36,369 nt of DNA from Prochlorococcus sp. AG-424-A03 (GTDB lineage: Bacteria > Cyanobacteriota > Cyanobacteriia > PCC-6307 > Cyanobiaceae), in assembly GCA_003213375.1 (NCBI GenBank), contig QCNA01000011.1:1-36369 (forward strand). The letters run 5' to 3'. This document shows positions 5,886-25,425 of this stretch, piece after piece. Every line of letters begins with the position of its first letter. Positions within the stretch are counted from its first letter, which is position 1. The notes below the pieces were generated by a model. The model ran no database searches. It worked only from the letters and a program-made list of their open reading frames with translations, and was not told the origin of the DNA. A program made the position numbers and the translations under genes.

Positions 5886-7748
5886 ATGCCAATAAGACAA
5901 GACGATAATCAACCTAATAGAAGATTTGGAATTGTAAATATCATTTTGATAGGAGTTGGAGCACTACTTTTATTTAGTAGCCTTTTCCCTAACCAAAATA
6001 TGCAAATCCCTAGGGTTCCTTACTCCTTATTTATTGATCAAGTTAATGATGGAGAGGTAAAGAGAGCATATATTACCCAAGAACAAATCAGATATGAGTT
6101 AAATGGAGCTGAAGAAGGAGCACCTTCAGTTTTAGCAACAACTCCAATTTTTGATATGGATCTGCCCCAAAGGTTAGAAAGTAAAGGGGTGGAATTCGCT
6201 GCTGCCCCTCCAAAGAAACCTAATTTCTTCTCAACTATATTGAGCTGGGTTGTACCTCCTTTGATTTTTATCCTTGTCTTACAATTTTTCGCTAGAAGAA
6301 GCATGGGTGGCGGAGGTGCTCAGGGAGCTCTAAGTTTTACTAAAAGCAAAGCTAAAGTTTATGTACCAGATGATGAATCAAAAGTGACATTCGAAGACGT
6401 AGCTGGAGTTGATGAAGCTAAGGATGAATTAACAGAGATAGTTGATTTTTTAAAAAGACCAGAAAGATATACTGATATTGGAGCTCGAATACCTAAGGGT
6501 GTACTTCTTGTAGGACCTCCAGGAACAGGAAAAACTCTTCTTTCAAAGGCTGTAGCTGGTGAAGCAGAAGTTCCTTTCTTCATTATTTCAGGTTCTGAAT
6601 TCGTTGAGCTTTTTGTAGGTGCAGGCGCGGCAAGAGTTAGGGATCTGTTTGAACAAGCAAAGAAAAAAGCTCCTTGCATTATTTTTATTGACGAATTAGA
6701 TGCTATAGGTAAAAGCCGTTCTGGATCTATGGGAGTAGTTGGTGGAAATGACGAAAGAGAACAAACTTTAAATCAGTTGCTAACTGAAATGGATGGTTTT
6801 GCTTCAACTGATAAGCCTGTTATTGTTCTTGCTGCTACTAACCAACCGGAAGTCCTAGATGCCGCGTTATTAAGGCCTGGAAGATTTGATAGGCAAGTTT
6901 TAGTCGATAGACCTGATTTGTTAGGAAGAAAAACAATTCTAGAAATTTACACAAAAAAAGTTAAATTAGCAGACTCTATAGATCTAGATTCAATTGCACA
7001 AGCAACAAGCGGTTTTGCAGGTGCCGATTTAGCAAATATGGTAAATGAAGCTGCTTTACTTGCAGCCAGAGCAAAAAGAAAAAGCGTAGAGCAACAAGAT
7101 TTAAGTGAGGCTATTGAGAGAGTTGTTGCTGGTTTGGAAAAAAAGAGTCGTGTTTTGCAAGATGATGAAAAGAAAGTGGTGGCCTATCACGAGGTTGGTC
7201 ATGCAATAGTTGGTCATCTTATGCCTGGAGGTTCAAAAGTTGCCAAGATCTCAATTGTACCAAGAGGTATGAGTGCACTTGGTTATACTCTGCAATTGCC
7301 AACAGAAGAAAGATTTTTGAATTCTAAAGATGAATTAAAAGGACAAATAGCTACACTTCTTGGGGGAAGATCAGCAGAAGAGGTCGTTTTTGGAAAAATA
7401 ACAACTGGAGCTTCAAATGATCTTCAAAGAGCTACTGATATAGCAGAACAAATGGTCGGTACGTTCGGAATGAGTGACATTCTTGGTCCCCTTGCTTATG
7501 ACAAACAAGGTGGAGGTCAGTTCTTAGGAAATGGCAACAATCCAAGAAGATCTGTTAGTGATGCTACTGCTCAAGCAATAGACAAAGAGGTTAGAGAATT
7601 GGTAGATGATGCACACGAAACAGCACTAAATATTTTGAGGAATAATTTACCTCTTCTTGAATCGATTTCGCAAAAAATTCTCAAAGAAGAAGTTATAGAG
7701 GGTGAGGATCTTAAAACCCTCTTAGCTGAGAGTAAAATGCCTGCATAG
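5886..7748 (+). CDS. ftsH: ATP-dependent zinc metalloprotease FtsH
   Basis: This membrane AAA+ protease degrades damaged membrane proteins; in cyanobacteria members of this family turn over photosystem II D1. There are two N-terminal membrane segments (about 14-34 and 115-135) around a periplasmic/lumenal domain. The Walker A GPPGTGKT is at 210-217, Walker B is [11 protein letters not shown], and the second-region-of-homology is [10 protein letters not shown]. The zinc site is HEVGH (H435, H439), with the likely third ligand D512 in ASNDLQ. It is complete at 620 residues. I start at the ATG at 5886 (MPIRQDD); a TTG at 5874 would add four residues. Cyanobacteria carry several ftsH genes and the paralogue number cannot be fixed from sequence alone. 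Confidence 0.95.
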
Positions 7749-7776
7749 TAAAATTTAGGTTTTCGTATAAATTTAG

Positions 7777-8700
7777 ATGTTAAATCCGATAAAGCTTGCA
7801 AATAAAAATTTTCTTTCAAGCTTAGACATAACCACTGAAGAATTTATATATATCCTAGAACTTGCTAAAAATTTTAAGAACAAGGATGTAGACATAAAAT
7901 TGAAAGATAAAGTCTTAGGACTAATTTTCAATAAGTCTTCCACGAGAACAAGAGTTAGTTTTCAAGTCGCCATGTCAAGACTTGGGGGCACTACAATTGA
8001 TTTAGATCCTAATACTTCACAAATTGGAAGAGGAGAGCCTATTAAAGATACTGCAAGAGTGTTAAGTAGATTCTGTGATGTGCTTGCTATAAGAACATTT
8101 AATCAATCAGATTTGGAGGAATTTGCGAAGTGGTCTTCTATACCAATAATTAATGCTCTTACAGATTTAGAACATCCTTGTCAAGCTTTGGCGGATTTTA
8201 TGACAATCCAAGAGGAATTTGTTGATTTTAAAAATATAGTTTTAACTTTTGTTGGTGATGGCAATAATGTTGCTAACTCACTTATTTTATGTGGAGCATT
8301 ATTAGGTGTTGAAGTCAGGATTGCATGTCCCTCGGGCTATGAACCCAATTCTTCTATTGTAAATAAAGCATTAGAGATATACGAGAATAAAAGTTTATTG
8401 AAGATCACTAATGACCCTAATACAGCAGTTTACGGGGCAAATGTTATTTATACAGATGTTTGGTCTTCTATGGGGGAAGAAAATAAAAAGGAAGAAAAGG
8501 ATAAGGAATTTGATGGATTTACTATTGATAGTAATTTAATAAAAAACGCAGATAGAGATGCAATTATTCTTCATTGTCTTCCTGCTTATAGATCTAAAGA
8601 AATAACTGATGAAGTAATTGAAAGTAAGAGAAGTAGAATTTTTGATCAAGCTGAAAATAGGTTGCATGCGCAACAAGCTCTTCTGTCTTGCCTAATATAA
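7777..8700 (+). CDS. argF: Ornithine carbamoyltransferase
   Basis: It forms citrulline from ornithine and carbamoyl phosphate in arginine biosynthesis. The carbamoyl-phosphate motif SSTRTR sits at about residues 54-59. The LEHPCQALADF motif follows, and HCLPAYR near the C-terminus carries the ornithine-side Cys. The 307 residues match anabolic OTCases. Catalytic motifs are all present. It starts with ATG, 28 bp after ftsH on the same strand, and is followed by lexA. Confidence 0.96.
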   Translation: MLNPIKLANKNFLSSLDITTEEFIYILELAKNFKNKDVDIKLKDKVLGLIFNKSSTRTRVSFQVAMSRLGGTTIDLDPNTSQIGRGEPIKDTARVLSRFCDVLAIRTFNQSDLEEFAKWSSIPIINALTDLEHPCQALADFMTIQEEFVDFKNIVLTFVGDGNNVANSLILCGALLGVEVRIACPSGYEPNSSIVNKALEIYENKSLLKITNDPNTAVYGANVIYTDVWSSMGEENKKEEKDKEFDGFTIDSNLIKNADRDAIILHCLPAYRSKEITDEVIESKRSRIFDQAENRLHAQQALLSCLI

Positions 8701-8729
8701 GTAAAAACTTGCACTTTCCTCTTTGAAGG

Positions 8730-8743
8730 GGTACAAATGTATT
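8730..8743 (+). promoter_or_regulatory. Candidate LexA box 1 upstream of lexA
   Basis: GGTACAAATGTATT fits the cyanobacterial LexA box RGTACNNNDGTWCB except for one base (GTAT in place of GTWC). It lies about 30 bp before the lexA start, where autorepression would be expected. Confidence 0.55.
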
Positions 8744-8745
8744 AG

Positions 8746-8759
8746 AGTACATATGTTTT
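8746..8759 (+). promoter_or_regulatory. Candidate LexA box 2 upstream of lexA
   Basis: AGTACATATGTTTT again fits RGTACNNNDGTWCB with one mismatch (GTTT for GTWC). It lies 16 bp downstream of box 1 and ends 5 bp before the start codon, so bound repressor would also block the ribosome-binding region or the start of transcription. Confidence 0.55.
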
Positions 8760-8763
8760 AGTT

Positions 8764-9381
8764 TTGAATTCGTCTCGAAAGAATCTTTCTGAAGCTCAAA
8801 ACGAGCTTTATGAGTGGATAAAAAGTTATATGAGAGATTTTCATCATAGTCCTTCTATCAGGCAAATGATGTTAGCTATGGGTCTAAGGTCACCTGCACC
8901 TATACAAAGCAGATTAAAGCATTTACAGCAAAAAGGTTTTATTAGTTGGCAAGAAGGTAAAGCCAGGACTCTGCAAATTGTTGATGAAGTATTTGAAGGG
9001 GTACCAATTATGGGTTCTGTAGCTGCAGGAGGTTTAATTGAAACTTATTCTGATGTTCATGAGAATTTAGATATTTCAGATATTTTTCAAAAGAAAAATG
9101 TTTTTGCTCTAACGGTCAATGGAGATTCAATGATAGATGCATGTATTGCAGATGGAGATATGGTCTTGATGGAACCAGTTACAGAATCATTATCACTTAG
9201 GAATGGAATGATAGTAAGTGCAATGGTTCCAGGACTGGGTACAACTTTAAAATATTTTTTTAAGAGGGGAGGAAAAATTTTTCTTGAAGCAGCGAATCCA
9301 GCTTATGGACCAATTGAGTTAAATTTTGATCAGGCTGTAATTCAAGGAAAGCTTTTAGCTGTTTGGAGAAAAGTTAAGTAA
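8764..9381 (+). CDS. lexA: LexA repressor, SOS regulator with self-cleavage residues
   Basis: It represses DNA-damage genes and is inactivated by RecA-stimulated self-cleavage. The N-terminal winged helix (about 1-72) contains the SPSIRQMMLAMGLRSPAP recognition region. The S24-type peptidase domain has the Ala88-Gly89 scissile bond in SVAAGG, the catalytic Ser122 in NGDSM, and Lys163 in TTLKYF. It should therefore be a true cleavable LexA, unlike the Synechocystis protein, which lacks these residues. It is 205 residues long with a TTG start at 8764; the next in-frame ATG would remove part of the DNA-binding helix. Two LexA-like boxes precede it. It converges on the next gene with a 23-bp gap. 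Confidence 0.95.
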   Translation: MNSSRKNLSEAQNELYEWIKSYMRDFHHSPSIRQMMLAMGLRSPAPIQSRLKHLQQKGFISWQEGKARTLQIVDEVFEGVPIMGSVAAGGLIETYSDVHENLDISDIFQKKNVFALTVNGDSMIDACIADGDMVLMEPVTESLSLRNGMIVSAMVPGLGTTLKYFFKRGGKIFLEAANPAYGPIELNFDQAVIQGKLLAVWRKVK

Positions 9382-9404: not shown

Positions 9405-10340
9405 TTATAAATTGTTTTTAAACCAAGAAATTGTTTTGAGGAGGCCTTCCTCTAGTTCAATCTTTGGTTCCCAATTTAATAATTCCTTGGCTAATTGAAT
9501 AGAGGGTTGCCTCTGTTTTGGATCATCTTGTGGGAGCTTTTTGTATTGAAATTCTAAGTTTGGATTTATTAAAACTTTAACCAAATTAGCAAGTTCTTTT
9601 ATAGTAAATTCATTTGGGTTCCCAATATTTAAGGGATATTCATAATCACTCTCCATTAGTAGGGTCATTCCTTGAATTAAATCGTCAACGTAACAAAATG
9701 ATCTTGTTTGACTACCGTCACCATAGATTGTTATTTTTTCATTTTTTAAAGCTTGGATTATAAAGTTGCTAATTACTCTCCCATCATCGAATCTCATGTT
9801 TGGACCATAAGTATTGAAAATTCTCATTATTCTTACTTTGACCCCATGTACTCTTGAATAATCTGAGCAAAGAGTTTCTGCAATTCTTTTACCCTCGTCA
9901 TAACAACTTCTAATCCCAATTGTGTTTACTGATCCTTTATAAGATTCTTTTTGAGGATGTTCTTTTGGATCGCCATAAACTTCACTTGTGCTTGCTAATA
10001 AAATCTTTGCACCTACTCTTTTTGCCAGTCCCAACATGTTGTAAGTACCCATGAAGCTTGTTTTTGTTGTTTTAATTGGATTAAATTGATAATGAACTGG
10101 CGATGCAGGACAAGCTAAATGCCATATATTGTCAATTTCTAGTTTTATAGGCTCAGTTACATCATGTCTTATAAACTCAAAATTTTGATATTTAAATAAA
10201 TCTTTAATATTATTTTTAGTTCCTGTAAAGAAATTATCAAGACATATTACTTCTTCTCCTCTCTCGAGCAATTTTAGTGCAAGATGTGAACCTAGAAATC
10301 CAGCACCGCCTGTTATAAGATTTCTTTTTTTATTATCCAT
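9405..10340 (-). CDS. UDP-glucuronate decarboxylase (UDP-xylose synthase)
   Basis: This short-chain dehydrogenase/reductase converts UDP-glucuronate to UDP-xylose, probably for surface glycan. The Rossmann motif [10 protein letters not shown] is at residues 10-19. The active-site segment [10 protein letters not shown] gives T118 and E120, and SCYDEGKR gives Y147 and K151; E120 and the CYDEGKR context are characteristic of UXS within the SDR family. The 311 residues are normal for the soluble form. It is divergent from UDP-glucose dehydrogenase, which makes its substrate, so the pair forms one short pathway. It is the first gene of the surface island after the core block. Confidence 0.88.
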
Positions 10341-10467
10341 ATAATTAATGTGAACTTTATAAAAATACTTAGTTAATTGAGACCTAAATAATAATATTAT
10401 TATTTTAATATTAAATCATAGGAACCCAATAAAAAATAATCATTTTATTTTGGGAAATTTAAAAAGA

Positions 10468-11865
10468 ATGACCAATAAATTCAAACAAAACATTTGTTGC
10501 ATAGGTGCGGGATATGTTGGAGGACCTACGATGTCTGTAATTGCATTAAATTGTCCTCACTTAAGGGTTGATGTTGTTGATATTGATGAAGAAAGAATAA
10601 AAGAATGGAATAACAATGATATTTCCCAATTACCTATTTTTGAACCTGGTTTGGCGAATATTGTTGGCAAATGTAGGGGTATTAATCTTTTTTTCTCAAA
10701 TAAGGTTGAGGAATGTATTAGAGAAGCAGATATTATTTTTATTTCAGTTAATACTCCTACAAAAAAGAGTGGAATAGGAGCCGGATTTGCAAGTGACTTG
10801 AAGTGGATAGAATCTTCTGCAAGGCAAATTGCCAAATTTGCAAAAGCTCATACCGTAATTGTTGAGAAAAGTACTTTGCCTGTAAAAACTGCTGAAACTA
10901 TAAAAACTATTTTGGATTCATCTGAGCAAAATGATGAGGTGAATATAAAAAATAACAAAACTTTTTCAATAGTATCTAATCCAGAATTCCTTGCAGAGGG
11001 AACAGCTGTTAATGATCTTCAGAATCCTGATAGAGTTTTAATTGGAGGTGATGACGATAATGCAATTAAGTTGATCACAAATATTTATAAAAACTGGATT
11101 GATCCTACTAAGATAATCACAACAAATCTCTGGAGTGCAGAATTATCAAAATTAGTATCTAACGCTTTTTTAGCTCAAAGAATCTCATCTATAAATTCCA
11201 TAACTGCTCTTTGTGAGTCAACTGGGGCTAATATTAATGAAGTTGCTGAGGCAATTGGAACAGATTCAAGGATAGGAAGAAAATTTTTGAAATCTGGTCC
11301 AGGTTTTGGTGGAAGTTGTTTTAAGAAGGATATACTTAATCTCGTCTATTTATGTAATTTTTACGGCCTTTATGAAGTTGCAAATTATTGGGAACAAGTA
11401 GTTAAAGTTAATTTATGGCAACAAAAAAGAATATCAACTCTTATAATAAGACAATTATTTGGAACTCTTGCAAATAAAAAATTAGCAATATTTGGGTTTT
11501 CATTCAAGGCAAATACTAATGATACGAGGGAGTCCCCAAGTATAAATATTTCCAAAAATTTGTTGCAGGAAGGCGCTAAATTAAACTTCTATGATCCAAA
11601 AGTAAAAGAAGGACAAATCTTAAATGAATTTGATGAAACCACAAATAGGGAAAATTGTGTAGTTAGTGAAACACCTTTAAAAGCTGCAGAAGGATGTGAT
11701 GCAATTATAGTTTTAACTGAATGGGAAGAGTTTAAAGTTTTAGATTGGGAAAATATTTATAAAGTAATGCGAAAACCAGCATGGGTGTTTGATTCAAGAA
11801 TTTTTATAGATAAAGAAGTTTTAAAAAAGATTGGTTTCCAAGTCTGGACATTAGGAACTGTGTAG
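10468..11865 (+). CDS. ugd: UDP-glucose 6-dehydrogenase
   Basis: It oxidises UDP-glucose to UDP-glucuronate with two NAD. The N-terminal NAD-binding motif is GAGYVGGPTM, the catalytic Cys is C284 in GPGFGGSCFKKD, and the C-terminal UDP-binding domain contains FGFSFKANTNDTRESPS. It is 465 residues long from the ATG at 10468; a TTG at 10450 would add six residues. NICCIGAGYVGG resembles the longer, eukaryote-like UGDH branch rather than the E. coli type. It is divergent from the UDP-glucuronate decarboxylase, so the two enzymes probably act in sequence. Confidence 0.93.
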   Translation: MTNKFKQNICCIGAGYVGGPTMSVIALNCPHLRVDVVDIDEERIKEWNNNDISQLPIFEPGLANIVGKCRGINLFFSNKVEECIREADIIFISVNTPTKKSGIGAGFASDLKWIESSARQIAKFAKAHTVIVEKSTLPVKTAETIKTILDSSEQNDEVNIKNNKTFSIVSNPEFLAEGTAVNDLQNPDRVLIGGDDDNAIKLITNIYKNWIDPTKIITTNLWSAELSKLVSNAFLAQRISSINSITALCESTGANINEVAEAIGTDSRIGRKFLKSGPGFGGSCFKKDILNLVYLCNFYGLYEVANYWEQVVKVNLWQQKRISTLIIRQLFGTLANKKLAIFGFSFKANTNDTRESPSINISKNLLQEGAKLNFYDPKVKEGQILNEFDETTNRENCVVSETPLKAAEGCDAIIVLTEWEEFKVLDWENIYKVMRKPAWVFDSRIFIDKEVLKKIGFQVWTLGTV

Positions 11866-15006: not shown

Positions 15007-15146
15007 TTTTTATTTTTCAATTCAAATTAATGATCTTAACATTGGAAGTTTAGAAAAAAATATATAACTTATAAAGTATTATAGAAATTGCGGACGTTAA
15101 GCAAGTAATCTATAGATTAAATGTTGTGACTGACGTTAGGAGAATT

Positions 15147-15219
15147 GGGGCCATAGCTCAGTTGGTAGAGCACCTGCATGGCATGCAGGGGGTCAGGGGT
15201 TCAAATCCCCTTGGCTCCA
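15147..15219 (+). tRNA. tRNA-Ala (anticodon GGC)
   Basis: The 73-nt gene folds fully. The acceptor arm GGGGCCA pairs with TGGCTCC and includes the G3:U70 pair that marks alanine tRNAs. The D-arm is GCTC/GAGC, the anticodon stem CCTGC/GCAGG with loop ATGGCAT (anticodon GGC), the T-arm AGGGG/CCCCT with loop TTCAAAT, and the discriminator is A at 15219. CCA is not fully encoded. It sits inside the polysaccharide island and is followed by a partial second copy, so it is a candidate integration target. Confidence 0.95.
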
Positions 15220-15392
15220 TTGAATTTTATTAGTGATAGCAATAGATTCGGGCGATTCTCACAAATCTAATGATTAGACTGATATGGGTTGATAGTTGAC
15301 GATATAGCTAAATTCCGCAATAATTCTCGCAATTTACATTTAGTTATAATCTCTAACGCGTGTTATAGTAATGGGACTCACCTGTTTTTAGC

Positions 15393-15439
15393 CCTTCATG
15401 GCATGCAGGGGGTCAGCGGTTCGATTCCGCCTGGCTCTA
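15393..15439 (+). repeat. Diverged 3' fragment of a tRNA-Ala, candidate attachment-site remnant
   Basis: A 20-base block, CATGGCATGCAGGGGGTCAG, is repeated exactly at 15177-15196 (in the tRNA) and 15397-15416, 220 bp apart in the same orientation. The homology continues to the tRNA 3' end at 15439. Acceptor 5' half and D-arm are absent. The T-stem reads GCGG/CCGC instead of GGGG/CCCC, a compensated change, so this end came from a different functional tRNA-Ala rather than from recent copying. Such a displaced tRNA 3' end is what integration at a tRNA leaves behind. Confidence 0.75.
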
Positions 15440-15679
15440 TTAGTTATTGTTGATTCTTACGCTAAAAGTGTCCCCAAAGGAACATCAGAAAAAGATGAAG
15501 GATTCGCAGAACCTTTATATGAATCACAAGAATTTCTTGCTCCTAGTGATGCAACAACAATAGTTATGCATCATAGTGGCAGGGCTGAAAGTAATTCAGC
15601 AATAAAACTTAAAAGAAATAACCTTTTATTACTTACTTTAGAAGCAATAAAAAAAATAAAATTTAAAAATATATCTTAA
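15398..15679 (+). other. Open frame running out of the tRNA fragment; doubtful or truncated gene
   Basis: The frame is open for 93 codons, but its first ATG lies inside the tRNA-Ala fragment, and the first ~14 codons are tRNA sequence. The remaining part has a plausible amino-acid composition (KGTSEKDEGFAEPLYESQEF, then PSDATTIVMHHSG). No other ATG, GTG or TTG start occurs in frame before a late ATG in the middle. It may be the 3' end of a gene whose 5' part was cut off at the attachment site. I do not recognise the protein and claim no function. Confidence 0.25.
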
Positions 15680-15753
15680 TCTACCTATTTCATTAAGAGA
15701 CTGATTTCTTTAAAAAGACTAAATACATAAAAATGTATTAATCATATTAATAA

Positions 15754-16872
15754 TTAGTTTTCATTTTTTATGATGATTGATTCAATATAATTTGCAATAC
15801 TTCTTGAACCTTTTTTATTAGTATGTGTATAGTCATAAACTCCATCATCTTTTATTATATTCTGTAAATACATCGGGATTAATTCTACGTTTTTTTTGAT
15901 TTTAAATTCCGATAAAATTTTTTCTTGTAATTTAAAAACTTTTAAAAGAGGAGCGCAGTAATTATTATAAGCTTTATTTTCTTCGCCAAGATCTGGGTAC
16001 CTATCATAAACAATTTCTTTGCTAACAAAATTACAACCTGGAACCTGTTGCTGGATAATAAAAATTTTACTCTTTGGGAAATTATTCCTTGTTTGAGTTA
16101 TAAGATTTGAGAAAATTTCTTTATAATTTAAATAAACTTTTTTATTTATATTTTCGTTAAATATAATCTTTTCTCCAATTATCTTGAAATCTTTTTCTCG
16201 GGGTGTGTATGAACTTAAAAGATCATTAATTTCCGTTTTGGAATACAAAAAGAATTCTATTCTATTCCTTAATTCTAAAAATTTACTAACAAAAAATGAA
16301 TTATCTTTGAAAAGATTTTTTATATATCGCCTTTTAGATTGGGCAAAATCTGAATCACTAAATTTTTGATTTACCAATCTTCTATCATTAATTCCAACAT
16401 AGAAGATTACAATACTAACATCATCCTTATCTAAAAATTTTGAGTGCCAATTCAAAATAGATAAAAGATGACCATAGGAACTTTGACCATCAATGCCCCC
16501 ATTGACAAAATCATAATTTTTAAATTTTAAATCTAAGATATCTTGAAATGTCTCACCCTCTGATACATATCGTTGATTAGTCGTGGAACCTCCAATAGTT
16601 AAAACTATCTGTTTATTTGAAATTAAATCTCTACTTCGATAACCATGTGCATCTCGCTTATAAAGAACATTGACTGGTTTTTGAGAAGAATATAGTTTTT
16701 TTACATCGTATTTAAAAATTTTATTTCTCTCTAAACCAGGAATTTGTAAATACTCATTATTTTCAAAAAAATTTTTACGCCAATCGCCTAATATTAATTC
16801 AACTGTGCAAATAAATAATGAAAAAAAAAGAATATTTAAAGATACTAATTTTGGTATTTTTAAAAAATTCAT
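15754..16872 (-). CDS. Membrane-anchored SGNH/GDSL-family hydrolase
   Basis: The 372-residue protein has one N-terminal membrane segment (about 8-28), so the rest is probably extracytoplasmic. SGNH blocks can be followed in order: block I as TIGGSTT (Ser96), block II as NGGIDGQSS, block III as YVGINDRR (Asn162), and block V as DYTHTNKKG (Asp/His near the C-terminus). Members act as esterases or as acetyl-transfer/deacetylation enzymes on surface glycans; the substrate here is unknown. The start lies 3 bp after the stop of the truncated recombinase, so it seems to have been joined to it by recombination. Confidence 0.75.
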   Translation of the reverse strand: MNFLKIPKLVSLNILFFSLFICTVELILGDWRKNFFENNEYLQIPGLERNKIFKYDVKKLYSSQKPVNVLYKRDAHGYRSRDLISNKQIVLTIGGSTTNQRYVSEGETFQDILDLKFKNYDFVNGGIDGQSSYGHLLSILNWHSKFLDKDDVSIVIFYVGINDRRLVNQKFSDSDFAQSKRRYIKNLFKDNSFFVSKFLELRNRIEFFLYSKTEINDLLSSYTPREKDFKIIGEKIIFNENINKKVYLNYKEIFSNLITQTRNNFPKSKIFIIQQQVPGCNFVSKEIVYDRYPDLGEENKAYNNYCAPLLKVFKLQEKILSEFKIKKNVELIPMYLQNIIKDDGVYDYTHTNKKGSRSIANYIESIIIKNEN

Positions 16873-16875
16873 TTT

Positions 16876-17667
16876 TTAAAAATCTATTAAACTTTTAGCA
16901 AAACAACTGATACCTGTATGAAAAAAATAAAATCTTCTATCAATACCTTGAAAATTATTAAAGACGCCAAATAATACTTTTGCAACCTCACAACTTTGCC
17001 CAAATTCTGTCTTTGGTAAATCATTTAATAAAAATAAAATCTCATCATCTTTTAGTCTTTCAATCTTATAACTATTCTTAGATTTACCATCTTTTAATTC
17101 TTTAATAATCAAATCACTAGGCGGTAAAAGTCTTTCATCTAATACTTTTTTAACAACAATAAATTGTAAAAAAGTTTTTACATTTGTAACTACTCTTTTT
17201 TTATATGCACTATCTTTTTTATTTTTTACTAATTTTTCTAAGATAGCTTTGACCGTTGTTGGTACATTTTGGGAACCCTTCATAATTTTAATTTCATTTA
17301 ATAAATAACTGTAATTTCCTCCCCAAAATGACTTACTAATTTTTTTATATTCTTTAAAATCTTCAATTAATTTTTTCCAATCTAAGTTAATTTTGTGGGC
17401 ATTATCTTGGTATAAAATTTCAAGAGCTTCTCTCAAATTAAACCAATAATTTTGATTGCAATCATTAATATTTTGCAGGAAATTTAATAGAGATAATTCT
17501 TGATATGGTTCCCATACTATTGGTAAAGAAACAGTAGTTTTTTTATTTTTATCTGGGTAGTATCTTTGCAATAAAACTTTGCCACCCTTATCACGGACAG
17601 ACGAACCGAAGCCTCTTTGACACTTCAAAGCTTTTTGTATTTTCTTTTCCCAGATCAGCTTTGGCAT
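16876..17667 (-). pseudogene. Tyrosine-recombinase-like integrase, catalytic domain missing
   Basis: The 263-residue product begins PKLIWEKKIQKALKCQRGFG and continues with SSVRDKGGKVLLQRYYPD, an opening I associate with island integrases of marine picocyanobacteria. A helical SAM-like/core-binding region follows (about 90-215). A tyrosine recombinase would next show the catalytic R...HxxR...Y domain. Here the protein ends soon after AKVLFGVF with an unrelated-looking tail and stops, 3 bp before the SGNH gene. It is therefore probably inactive for recombination. With the tRNA-Ala fragment 1.4 kb away it suggests an old tRNA-targeted element. The family call rests on the N-terminal half only. 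Confidence 0.6.
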
Positions 17668-22525: not shown

Positions 22526-23494
22526 TTATTCAATCTCTAAATTATTTAAATCAAGGAATAAAGAATAAGCCTTTTTACATAATTCTTTGTTAGTTTTTAG
22601 TCGGATTTCTTTTTTTGATTCTTTAAATTCAAAATTGTATAAATTTTCAATTTGAACTTTTTTCTGAATCTTATACCAATATTCTTTGCTTGAACAAAGT
22701 TTTTCATAACTTATAAAAATAATGTTGGCCTTATTCTTTAGCAATTTAACCGTGTTTTTATAAGTAAGATACCATTGCTCGATCCAATGATTGATATTCA
22801 GATCATCTTTAAAAGTTAGATTATCATTTCTAATGGGTATGTAATTTGGACCAAATTCGGTATGACCAATCCATTTCATATATTTAGATATAAAACGATC
22901 ATTTTTGCAATCTTCAATGAATTTTTTGTGTTGAATAAGTAAAGAGTATGAGTGCTGGATTGGATCTCTGTAAGGGATAAGTATCTTTGAATTTTTAAAA
23001 ATATTAGAAATTAATTCAATTCTTCTTATATTTTGATTATTTTTACTAAGGTATTTATCTTTGTTGTATTTTATAAGTATATTATTTACGTATTTTTTAA
23101 ATTTATCTTCCAATTCATAATCGTAAGCAAATGTTTTCCAAAAAACCTCTTCAAATGCTTCTGGAGACTCGGTTGAGACTTCAATACCATCCCCATGGGC
23201 TCTTTCTTTAAAGTTTAAATCATTTTTAATAAAGGAAATTTTAGACCACAAGTTAGGAGCTAATATGAATGGCATATCAGCATAAGATAAAGAAGCAAAA
23301 CTATTTGATTTAAAAAGTGCATTTAATAAAATTGTCGTTCCAGATCTTGCAAGTCCTGCAATAAATACATGGTTGTCCGGCTTTTGTAGAGAAGTTTTGA
23401 ATGAACTTTCGAAATCAAAAGTTACTTCTCGCATAAATTGTGATGATAGAGCAAATTGGTGAAGCTTTTGTTCCAACCAAGTGTAATTATTCAT
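22526..23494 (-). CDS. PAPS-dependent sulfotransferase family protein
   Basis: The 322-residue cytosolic-type protein has the 5'-phosphosulfate-binding loop FIAGLARSGTT at 44-54 and a 3'-phosphate-binding segment ILIPYRDPIQHSYSL with the Arg and Ser expected. It should transfer sulfate from PAPS to an acceptor, probably a glycan or lipid; the acceptor is not predictable. It is the last gene of a four-gene overlapping minus-strand set: its start overlaps the previous stop by 4 bp (ATGA type). No PAPS synthesis gene lies in the window. Confidence 0.78.
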   Translation of the reverse strand: MNNYTWLEQKLHQFALSSQFMREVTFDFESSFKTSLQKPDNHVFIAGLARSGTTILLNALFKSNSFASLSYADMPFILAPNLWSKISFIKNDLNFKERAHGDGIEVSTESPEAFEEVFWKTFAYDYELEDKFKKYVNNILIKYNKDKYLSKNNQNIRRIELISNIFKNSKILIPYRDPIQHSYSLLIQHKKFIEDCKNDRFISKYMKWIGHTEFGPNYIPIRNDNLTFKDDLNINHWIEQWYLTYKNTVKLLKNKANIIFISYEKLCSSKEYWYKIQKKVQIENLYNFEFKESKKEIRLKTNKELCKKAYSLFLDLNNLEIE

Positions 23495-23847
23495 TTTAAG
23501 ATTAACCTTCTTAAATACGCATAACTAAATGTTATTAATATTGAATAGATTATCCCAATCAATGAGAATGTAAATTCAAGAAAATTATTCAGAAATTTTT
23601 CTGTAATTAGAAAAAGTGAAGTAATCAATAAGAGGATAAATATCATTTGAAGTGAATACTTGATCATTTGCAATGAATATCTAGGAATTATATTTTCTTT
23701 CCAGTGATCGCTAATATTTTTATTCAAAATTATACCTATTGATTTTTTGCAAACTTTCACAGTCGAAGAAAGTAAGCCAAGATAATTTGAACGAATGAAT
23801 ATTTCAATAGATGATATGCAAATTAAGCAAAGAATCAATTGATTCAC
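23491..23847 (-). CDS. Small membrane protein of the sulfotransferase cassette
   Basis: This is a 118-residue protein with three or four likely membrane segments: an N-terminal one (LILCLICISSIEIFI), then FILLLITSLFLI and LIGIIYSILITFSYAYL. A basic cytoplasmic tail RRLILK closes it. It contains a small tandem repeat (YSLQMIKYSLQMI). There is no catalytic motif that I recognise. It overlaps its neighbours by 4 bp at both ends, so production is translationally tied to the arylsulfotransferase-like gene and the sulfotransferase. A role in membrane assembly or in holding the cassette proteins is a guess. Confidence 0.65.
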   Translation of the reverse strand: MNQLILCLICISSIEIFIRSNYLGLLSSTVKVCKKSIGIILNKNISDHWKENIIPRYSLQMIKYSLQMIFILLLITSLFLITEKFLNNFLEFTFSLIGIIYSILITFSYAYLRRLILK

Positions 23848-24032
23848 ATTCTTTTATTAATATTTTTTTTGGATGACATTTTTCTCTTTGCCTTCTTGTT
23901 TTTTAAAGCCCTTTTTATTGGATAATATAATATACCCCATAATCCCAAAAAGAATGCAGCAATTAGTCCAAAAATTGCTGCTATAACTCCTCCTCCCATT
24001 CCAGGGCCTAAGTAGGCAATTAAACTCTTCAT
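23844..24032 (-). CDS. Glycine-rich single-pass microprotein of the sulfotransferase cassette
   Basis: I start at the ATG at 24032 (MKSLIAYLGPGMGGGVIAAI), giving 62 residues; an upstream ATG at 24071 overlaps the preceding gene and adds 13 poor residues. The protein has a GPGMGGG loop, one hydrophobic segment (AAIFGLIAAFFLGLWGILYY) and a very basic tail (KRALKNKKAKRKMSSKK). I recall similar GPG-type small membrane proteins beside phosphatase, sulfatase and sulfotransferase genes, but this is memory only. Function unknown. Its stop overlaps the 118-residue gene by 4 bp. Confidence 0.65.
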   Translation of the reverse strand: MKSLIAYLGPGMGGGVIAAIFGLIAAFFLGLWGILYYPIKRALKNKKAKRKMSSKKNINKRM

Positions 24033-24063
24033 AATTGAGAATTTGAAATAAATTGAGATAGAT

Positions 24064-25425
24064 TCAGTCATTACATTTAACTCTTGATGATAAAAATTTC
24101 TTAACTATATTAATATCCTTATTATTGTATATAATTCTAGCCCAACCAACATCATATGTTTTTTTATCATCTGCACGATTAACATATGTCCATCTTAAAG
24201 ATCCATCTGAATTGATATAAAGCATTCGGCCAAAATTTGTTTCCTCAACAAAAAGGTCTCCATTTGACAAAATCTGACCTCGACCTTCAGTTGTTGTTCT
24301 TACATCATTTTTTATTAAACTATCATCAAGATATAAAGAATATTTATCAGTTTTGAAGTCATAAATGATTACTTGGTTGTTCCCATCAACAACATCACCG
24401 CTTATAAAATCCTTTGAATTATTATTAAAAACTGATATTGTATGGTCATTTAAAATATCAACATCATGTTGATGGAAAAATGGACCTGTGCCTTTCCAAA
24501 TTATTTTATTTGTTGATGGTCGATATAATATAACCATTGATTGATGTCTTAAAGATAAAAATAGGTCCCCTTTTTTCCAGAATTCTCCATCAAAATCTAC
24601 TGGTTGAATATCATTTAAATGAGTTGGATCAAATAAAAAGTTATTGATATCACCCGTCGCAAATAAAAGATACTCTAGACCATTTTCTATGAATATTTCT
24701 GAAAGAGACTTCTCAAATAAAATTTCTCCATTTGGCGACAATTTAACTATTCCATCGTCAACATAACCAAAATCACCCATCACTTTATTACCAACTTTTT
24801 CAATAGGTAGACTTTGTGGATAAATATAAGTTGAAGCCCAAATATTCCCTTCAATATCTGTCTCTATGGAGTGGTGAAATTTGTCATGATATTTTTGAAA
24901 AATTAGATTTGAACAAAAATCAATTTTTCTTAGTGGCGAATTATCAGTAAATACAAGACCACCATCTTCAATTAACTTTGGATGAGTTAAGACATACCTT
25001 GAATTATTAGCATCTCTTTTTATATAACGAAACTCTTCTTGATTATTTACCGATTTATTGAATTTATCAATATCAGGATTCCAAGTATGCAAAACTTGAA
25101 AATTGGTTAAATCAACTAGTTCAACTATTCCCTCTTTTAAATTTCCACTATATCTTGAAAGGAGAAGATAAGATTCTTTTGAATTAGGTTTACCATCAAA
25201 ACCATTTAATAAAGGGAATCTTGTTGGGACCCTATTATCATCATTAAATATTATCCTTTTAACTTTTACTGGTATTTCAACTAAAAATAATGCCTTTTTT
25301 GAGATTCCTCTAAATCTTGGTGCCTCAAGAAGTTCATGTCTTATTAGTAGACCAAAACTTATTGTTACAGGTATAGTTAAAAGGATGAATAAATAAAGGA
25401 TCCAAATTTCAATCTTTTTGAACAT
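24064..25425 (-). CDS. Arylsulfotransferase (ASST)-like beta-propeller protein
   Basis: The 453-residue protein has one N-terminal membrane segment (about 8-28) and an otherwise extracytoplasmic-looking body. ASST-family motifs in order: KFHHSIETDIEGNIWAS (His184/185), DPTHLNDIQPV (His269), FLSLRHQSMVILYRP (Arg293, His294), KGTGPFFHQHDVDIL (His318, His320), and late GRGQILSNGDLFVEE. ASST enzymes move sulfate between phenolic esters using an active-site His. It heads the four-gene set ending in a PAPS sulfotransferase; its stop lies near the next start. Substrate and whether it acts as a transferase at all are unknown. Confidence 0.72.
   Translation of the reverse strand: MFKKIEIWILYLFILLTIPVTISFGLLIRHELLEAPRFRGISKKALFLVEIPVKVKRIIFNDDNRVPTRFPLLNGFDGKPNSKESYLLLSRYSGNLKEGIVELVDLTNFQVLHTWNPDIDKFNKSVNNQEEFRYIKRDANNSRYVLTHPKLIEDGGLVFTDNSPLRKIDFCSNLIFQKYHDKFHHSIETDIEGNIWASTYIYPQSLPIEKVGNKVMGDFGYVDDGIVKLSPNGEILFEKSLSEIFIENGLEYLLFATGDINNFLFDPTHLNDIQPVDFDGEFWKKGDLFLSLRHQSMVILYRPSTNKIIWKGTGPFFHQHDVDILNDHTISVFNNNSKDFISGDVVDGNNQVIIYDFKTDKYSLYLDDSLIKNDVRTTTEGRGQILSNGDLFVEETNFGRMLYINSDGSLRWTYVNRADDKKTYDVGWARIIYNNKDINIVKKFLSSRVKCND

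Follow-up and report, generated by a model that had tools for sequence, protein, structure and literature searches.

Positions 22526-25425 of contig QCNA01000011.1 from Prochlorococcus sp. AG-424-A03 (36,369 nucleotides, analysed whole and called the window below) hold four minus-strand genes encoding an arylsulfate sulfotransferase (ASST)-like protein, two small membrane proteins (m75 and m118, after their lengths) and a sulfotransferase (ST) of the type that uses 3'-phosphoadenosine 5'-phosphosulfate (PAPS). On balance, we favor the view that this cassette is a transmembrane sulfate relay, with sulfate passing from PAPS to the ST, to a membrane carrier, to the ASST and finally to an acceptor. 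With m118 or a positional substitute tethering it to the inner side of the cytoplasmic membrane, the ST would take sulfate from PAPS and load a membrane-borne carrier of aryl or similarly activated type. The charged carrier would reach the outer face, where m75, whose AYxGPG motif is predicted to lie there, may present it or aid its movement. The membrane-anchored ASST would then remove the sulfate through a sulfohistidine (H320) and donate it outside the cytoplasm to an acceptor that is probably a glycan or some other component of the envelope. In such a scheme m75, the anchor and the ST would form a single charging module, and the ASSTs would be interchangeable "writers", numbering from one to several in a genome. 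Sequence directly shows the cassette and how conserved it is, as well as candidate catalytic residues, gene fusions and the counts of one charger to many writers; the topology of the relay, its use of PAPS and the direction of transfer we infer.

The ASST-like gene (24064..25425, 453 residues) encodes a helix at residues 2-32, predicted to be an N-terminal membrane anchor, followed by a beta-propeller matching PF14269 (4e-51) and also PF05935. The small membrane protein m75 (23844..24071) has 75 residues from an upstream ATG or 62 from an internal ATG, and m118 (23491..23847, GTG start) is a helical membrane protein of 118 residues; neither reaches the cut-off for any Pfam or NCBIfam model. 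The ST (22526..23494, 322 residues) matches PF13469 (Sulfotransfer_3, 2e-9) and has no membrane-helix window. Four-bp overlaps join m75 to m118 and m118 to the ST, as an earlier description of this sequence (the original prediction) had stated. It had also placed the start of a 62-residue gene close to the ASST stop: the gap is about 30 bp, and the 75-residue start overlaps the stop by 8 bp. The window's genome, which is 64% complete, contains an adenosine 5'-phosphosulfate (APS) kinase.

Linkage of the four genes in other genomes, named beforehand as a point on which the idea could fail, was found in 25 of 28 related loci. These loci came from a genome scan, partner genes were sought in them with iterated profiles, and by the labels of their sequence records they belong to Prochlorococcus, Synechococcus, SAR86, Gamma- and Alphaproteobacteria, Pelagibacteraceae (SAR11) and Marinamargulisbacteria. 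Beside the ASST, m75 is present in 27/28 loci, m118 in 26/28 and the ST in 25/28. Two of the shortfalls lie at contig ends: the Marinamargulisbacteria contig (L025) stops just past the ASST with no other cassette gene seen, and L029 stops within the expected ST. Of the 25 complete loci, 23 preserve gene order on a single strand and two, L016 and L030, are rearranged; m118 and the ST overlap in all 23 same-strand complete loci (by 4 bp in 15), and m75 and m118 in 20. At L016, a full ASST (6001-7368, plus strand) converges on an ST-m118-m75 block (7612-9368, minus strand), and the block terminates in a 70-residue remnant of an ASST C-terminus, an arrangement that suggests ASST exchange. Outside the cassette, no open reading frame (ORF) family of at least 80 residues is shared by more than 7 of 29 loci (the window counted), and flank lengths vary. 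Occurrence within Prochlorococcus is patchy: among 61 genomes, many incomplete, this type of cassette was found in four and a divergent second type in two. The second type (L123 8116-11053; L124 5211-13988) has an ASST of about 480 residues, an ST of about 346 residues, other gene arrangements and a small protein with the motif AYGGPGAA or AYAGPGAA.

The predicted structure of the propeller (AlphaFold2, mean pLDDT confidence 86) has the ASST fold, as the original prediction anticipated. Foldseek returned 9kf4/9kf6 and 3ett as the best matches, and the nearest solved folds are Cpz4 (Z 27.8) and Escherichia coli AssT (Z 24.6), with Z at or below 21.9 for the other proteins listed; the protein thus belongs to the AssT/Cpz4 propellers. 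The catalytic His, whose absence had been set out in advance as grounds for rejection, is present together with supporting His, Asn and Arg residues. The candidate catalytic residues are H184/H185, H269, N271, R293 and H320; H184, H185, H269, N271 and H320 are invariant in 14/14 deep homologues with identity down to about 20%, and R293 is kept in 13/14, with Ala in L006. In profile alignments H269, R293 and H320 align with the VHIN, SGR and WQHD motifs of Cpz4. By the coordinates of a weak match only (E 0.41; profile 320-397 on chain 433-512), H320 also falls at about His436 of AssT, and His436 is described as the residue transiently sulfated in AssT (PMC13426309). H320 is likely the sulfohistidine. 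At the N-terminus, the 12-mer MFKKIEIWILYL ranks first in conservation of 442 windows across 29 sequences of the window's ASST subfamily. It is conserved as protein, with codons free to vary (judged from only 5 positions), which suggests contact with the membrane.

The ST scores above both Pfam cut-offs and carries the motifs of PAPS-dependent sulfotransferases (PF13469/PF00685). R50, G52, T54, R176, P178 and S184 are kept in 48/48 sequences, and we take R50-G52-T54 and R176-P178-S184 to be the 5'-phosphosulfate and 3'-phosphate binding motifs. Sulfation of protein tyrosines by the ST was considered and rejected: the nearest solved relative is TPST1 (E 9e-5), with no single stretch passing alone, and the Tyr of m75 is predicted to lie across the membrane from the ST. 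The model of m118 (pLDDT 94.8) has helices at residues 2-19, 22-41, 47-85, 89-93 and 96-117 and no Foldseek match to a solved structure better than E 1.0; the order of its helices had suggested an Oxa1/GET1-type insertase, an idea to which this search lent no support. At four loci (L066, L126, L137 and L138; E 6e-4 to 5e-7) the ST reading frame includes an m118-like segment. These fusions point to anchoring of the ST as the likely role of m118, which is probably its membrane anchor.

The protein m75 combines an AYLGPGMGGG motif with one strong hydrophobic helix and a basic C-terminal tail, and from this charge pattern an outside position is predicted for the motif and an inside one for the tail. 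All 51 homologues listed, three of them of a YLDPG type, retain Y-x-[GD]-P, and the residue preceding the Tyr is Ala in 48. In proteobacterial homologues this Ala often closes an AxA sequence, which could be a signal-peptidase site. The YLDPG relatives are standalone (L058) or in frame with a Glyphos_transf (CDP-glycerol glycerophosphotransferase) domain (L062 376-1674; L064 403-1761). They retain the Tyr, and a search of their genomes found no ASST, which weakened AYxGPG as a mark of sulfation only.

In a wider survey, class names follow the labels of sequence records (L026, Alphaproteobacteria; L017, SAR86). When 240 genomes of the class of G106 (Alphaproteobacteria) were searched with the m75 profile, 13 matched, including the query's own. 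Eight of the other 12 have AYxGPG with an adjoining ST; six of these have the ASST adjacent, and the other two (G315 and G346) carry it at a separate place in the genome. No ASST was found in the three genomes with YLDPG-type proteins. In G165, one of the six, a DUF3137 gene intervenes; at L065 a DUF3137 gene (10205-11185) separates ASST from m75. In the class of G101 (Gammaproteobacteria, in which we take SAR86, L017, to be a group), 15 of 274 genomes matched the deep ASST profile. Removal of the query's own genome, G655 (25 bits) and G824 (19 bits) left 12, a cut of about 60 bits chosen once the hit list was known. ASST, m75 and ST lie close together in nine of these 12. The anchor position is occupied by an m118-like gene in G695, an m118-like segment fused to the ST in G783, an ORF of 238-272 residues in six genomes and a 121-residue ORF in G888, where the ST frame is broken and the m75 motif reads AYMGPT. 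Neither m75 nor ST was found in G690, G773 and G743, which have remote ASSTs.

Copies were counted in 15 genomes, the 12 gammaproteobacterial ones and the alphaproteobacterial G315, G346 and G165. Exactly one m75 and one ST occur in 12 of them, and these 12 carry one to four ASSTs: four in G832 (one in a shortened frame), three in G315, two each in G708, G346 and G165, and one in the remainder. The m75-ST pair adjoins no ASST in G315 and G346, and lone ASSTs occur in G165, G315 and G832. The 12-versus-3 contrast has p 0.002, a value that includes the three alphaproteobacterial genomes picked for having m75; the gammaproteobacterial contrast alone (9 versus 3) is 1 in 220 by hand calculation. 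On plasmids of named Alphaproteobacteria, divergent forms of ASST, m75 and ST lie side by side in 6/6 records examined, out of seven candidate cassette plasmids (the seventh, H39 from Streptomyces, was left out), the membrane protein being separate or fused. Among seven of 31 records taken as control plasmid ASSTs (H4, H9, H10, H12, H16, H17 and H20), the m75 profile matched none and an ST within 5 kb was absent in six; in H9, an O-antigen-like region contains two annotated STs together with an m118-like ORF. In cyanobacteria, 22 of 292 genomes matched the ASST, 18 of them at 36 bits or less. Matches above 100 bits besides the window's genome were limited to G467, G509 and G530 (L075-L077), where profiles did not find m75 or ST within about 1.2-1.4 kb.

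The surroundings of the cassette, judged by eye, differ among genomes. The original prediction suggested surface material as the acceptor, which agrees with the polysaccharide genes neighboring the cassette in the window and does not extend to five Prochlorococcus loci with housekeeping neighbors (L008, L013, L015, L019 and L024) or to several proteobacteria in which the cassette lies outside any evident polysaccharide cluster. Because many copies are so placed, surface polysaccharide is only one candidate acceptor. At L126 (7394-14356), from a gammaproteobacterium, the cassette comes immediately after mdoG-mdoH, which serve to make periplasmic glucan, and one cassette adjoins an APS-kinase-like gene scoring below NCBIfam cut-offs; such cases are too few for a conclusion on the acceptor. 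A DsbB gene lies near the cassette at L128 (5890-6387), and E. coli AssT has Dsb partners. In the window, a tRNA-Ala and a 263-residue ORF (16876-17667, minus strand) lie close together within 15146-17667; by eye the ORF resembles a portion of a tyrosine recombinase, and the site may be one of integration. Carriage by phages was considered and set aside, as no relative was found among viral contigs and annotated phages gave two partial matches at 25% identity only.

Taken together, the presence of several ASSTs per charging module, the gene linkage and fusions, and the precedent of Cpz8/Cpz4 fit the relay, and the ASST remnant at L016 and the lone ASSTs of G165, G315 and G832 fit exchangeable ASSTs. 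So does co-variation within an 18-member core (below), where m75, m118 and ST follow one another more closely than they follow the ASST. The sulfate-transfer unit of the original prediction is thereby supported in part, by an ASST with a predicted anchor and conserved residues, a PAPS-type ST and two small membrane proteins conserved together. Alternatively, the ST might sulfate a final product such as a lipid-linked sugar inside the cell, the ASST only shifting sulfate to another position or molecule of that product after export. The polysaccharide neighbors in the window would suit this, as would the synechan cluster, which has two sulfotransferase genes and for which the main text of PMC8205485 lacks the string "arylsulf". 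We nevertheless consider it unlikely: one ST is matched by one to four ASSTs, some located elsewhere in the genome, and cassettes occur outside polysaccharide clusters, so that a general donor fits better than one product. It is rather improbable that the propeller is a binding or structural partner and not an enzyme in vivo, with the ST doing all sulfation. In an 18-member core, distances of m75, m118 and ST co-vary with one another at r 0.78-0.94 and with the ASST at r 0.45-0.52, and both this weaker link and the Ala in place of R293 in L006 speak for a non-enzyme; the five His and Asn residues invariant in 14/14 and a top fold match to an ASST with a solved reaction intermediate argue for catalysis.

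Scavenging of environmental phenol sulfates by the ASST, as suggested for E. coli AssT, with the ST a separate activity sharing the operon, seems very unlikely to us. Characterised ASSTs do use aryl sulfates, natural substrates being reportedly unidentified (PMC13426309), but ASST-m75-ST linkage extends across cyanobacteria and proteobacteria, and m75 and ST are absent where the ASST is remote. An equally slim chance attaches to m75 itself being a protein-borne carrier, its invariant Tyr (AY-x-GP) serving as a phenol that accepts sulfate and gives it up to ASSTs; this Tyr would have to stand at or close to the N-terminus of the mature protein, on the outer face of the membrane.

Several observations weigh against the relay. 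At L028, m118 and ST were not found at E 1e-3 though the contig continues; the locus consists of ASST and m75, and in its genome (G107) m75 occurs twice, both times beside an ASST. Profiles find no m118 in the second-type Prochlorococcus loci, no anchor was seen between m75 and ST in those loci or in G346, and G211, the last of the 12 alphaproteobacterial m75 matches, retains an ST with a broken m75 and no ASST found. Anchors differ in size by lineage (117-136 residues if m118-like, 238-272 if not), and the larger proteins, called anchors from gene position alone, have no m118 profile match and, in the four tested, no Pfam match. The MFKKIEIW start is missing from most deeper ASSTs. Across all 26 complete sets, ASST distances co-vary with those of the partners at r 0.82-0.91, which limits the looser ASST link to the core. 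The genomes counted are mostly drafts, and single-cell or metagenome-assembled records (e.g., L022) may carry contamination. No carrier-synthesis gene was seen in the cassette. The triketide pyrone carrier of caprazamycin is made by a type III polyketide synthase (PKS). Such an enzyme (PF00195) is over cut-off in 7/30 related genomes, never at the cassette, and was not found in the window's own 64% complete genome; it was therefore rejected as the general carrier maker.

PAPS is made in the cytosol, so the activation of sulfate beyond the membrane calls for an explanation; the natural substrates of most ASSTs are reportedly unidentified (PMC13426309). The relay, if true, would help explain the sulfate source of extracytoplasmic ASSTs, and a cassette pairing them with a PAPS-type enzyme makes the question directly testable in cultured bacteria, Rhodobacter sp. 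CZR27 and Paracoccus saliphilus being two carriers. It also predicts yet-unfound sulfate modifications in very abundant marine bacteria (Prochlorococcus, SAR11 and SAR86). We found no published account of an arylsulfotransferase, under that spelling, for Prochlorococcus or SAR11 or with PAPS, gene clusters and lipopolysaccharide, nor any on a sulfate donor with a lipid carrier, in a search that covered few subscription papers and is weak evidence of novelty.

Among known systems, AssT of E. coli CFT073 shares the propeller fold (Z 24.6), and we know of no PAPS-dependent sulfotransferase partner for it. At its N-terminus it carries an additional beta-sandwich domain, a difference from the cassette protein, and what it acts on naturally is reportedly unidentified (PMC13426309). 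The synechan (xss) system of Synechocystis is likewise cyanobacterial sulfation by PF00685/PF13469 sulfotransferases, but these are described within a Wzx/Wzy polysaccharide cluster (PMC8205485). The closest parallel is caprazamycin biosynthesis in Streptomyces, in which Cpz8, a PAPS-dependent sulfotransferase, is reported to make an aryl sulfate that serves as donor for the PAPS-independent ASST Cpz4 (PMC6731281, PMC4257720); Cpz4, the nearest solved fold to the cassette ASST, is said to favor a sugar hydroxyl as acceptor (PMC13426309). The original prediction knew of no described system of this kind, a claim that stands less firmly now that the principle of PAPS-dependent sulfotransferase, aryl sulfate and ASST is known from this pair (PMC6731281, PMC4257720). 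In the cassette, gene linkage, fusions and copy counts suggest a corresponding pairing. The Cpz carrier is a triketide pyrone of a secondary-metabolite pathway (PMC6731281, PMC4257720), whereas no PKS lies within the cassette, which adds two membrane proteins, has an apparently anchored ST and is spread across phyla. We regard the cassette as a probable variant of the two-step sulfation already known, one that includes two membrane proteins beyond Pfam and NCBIfam models at cut-off.

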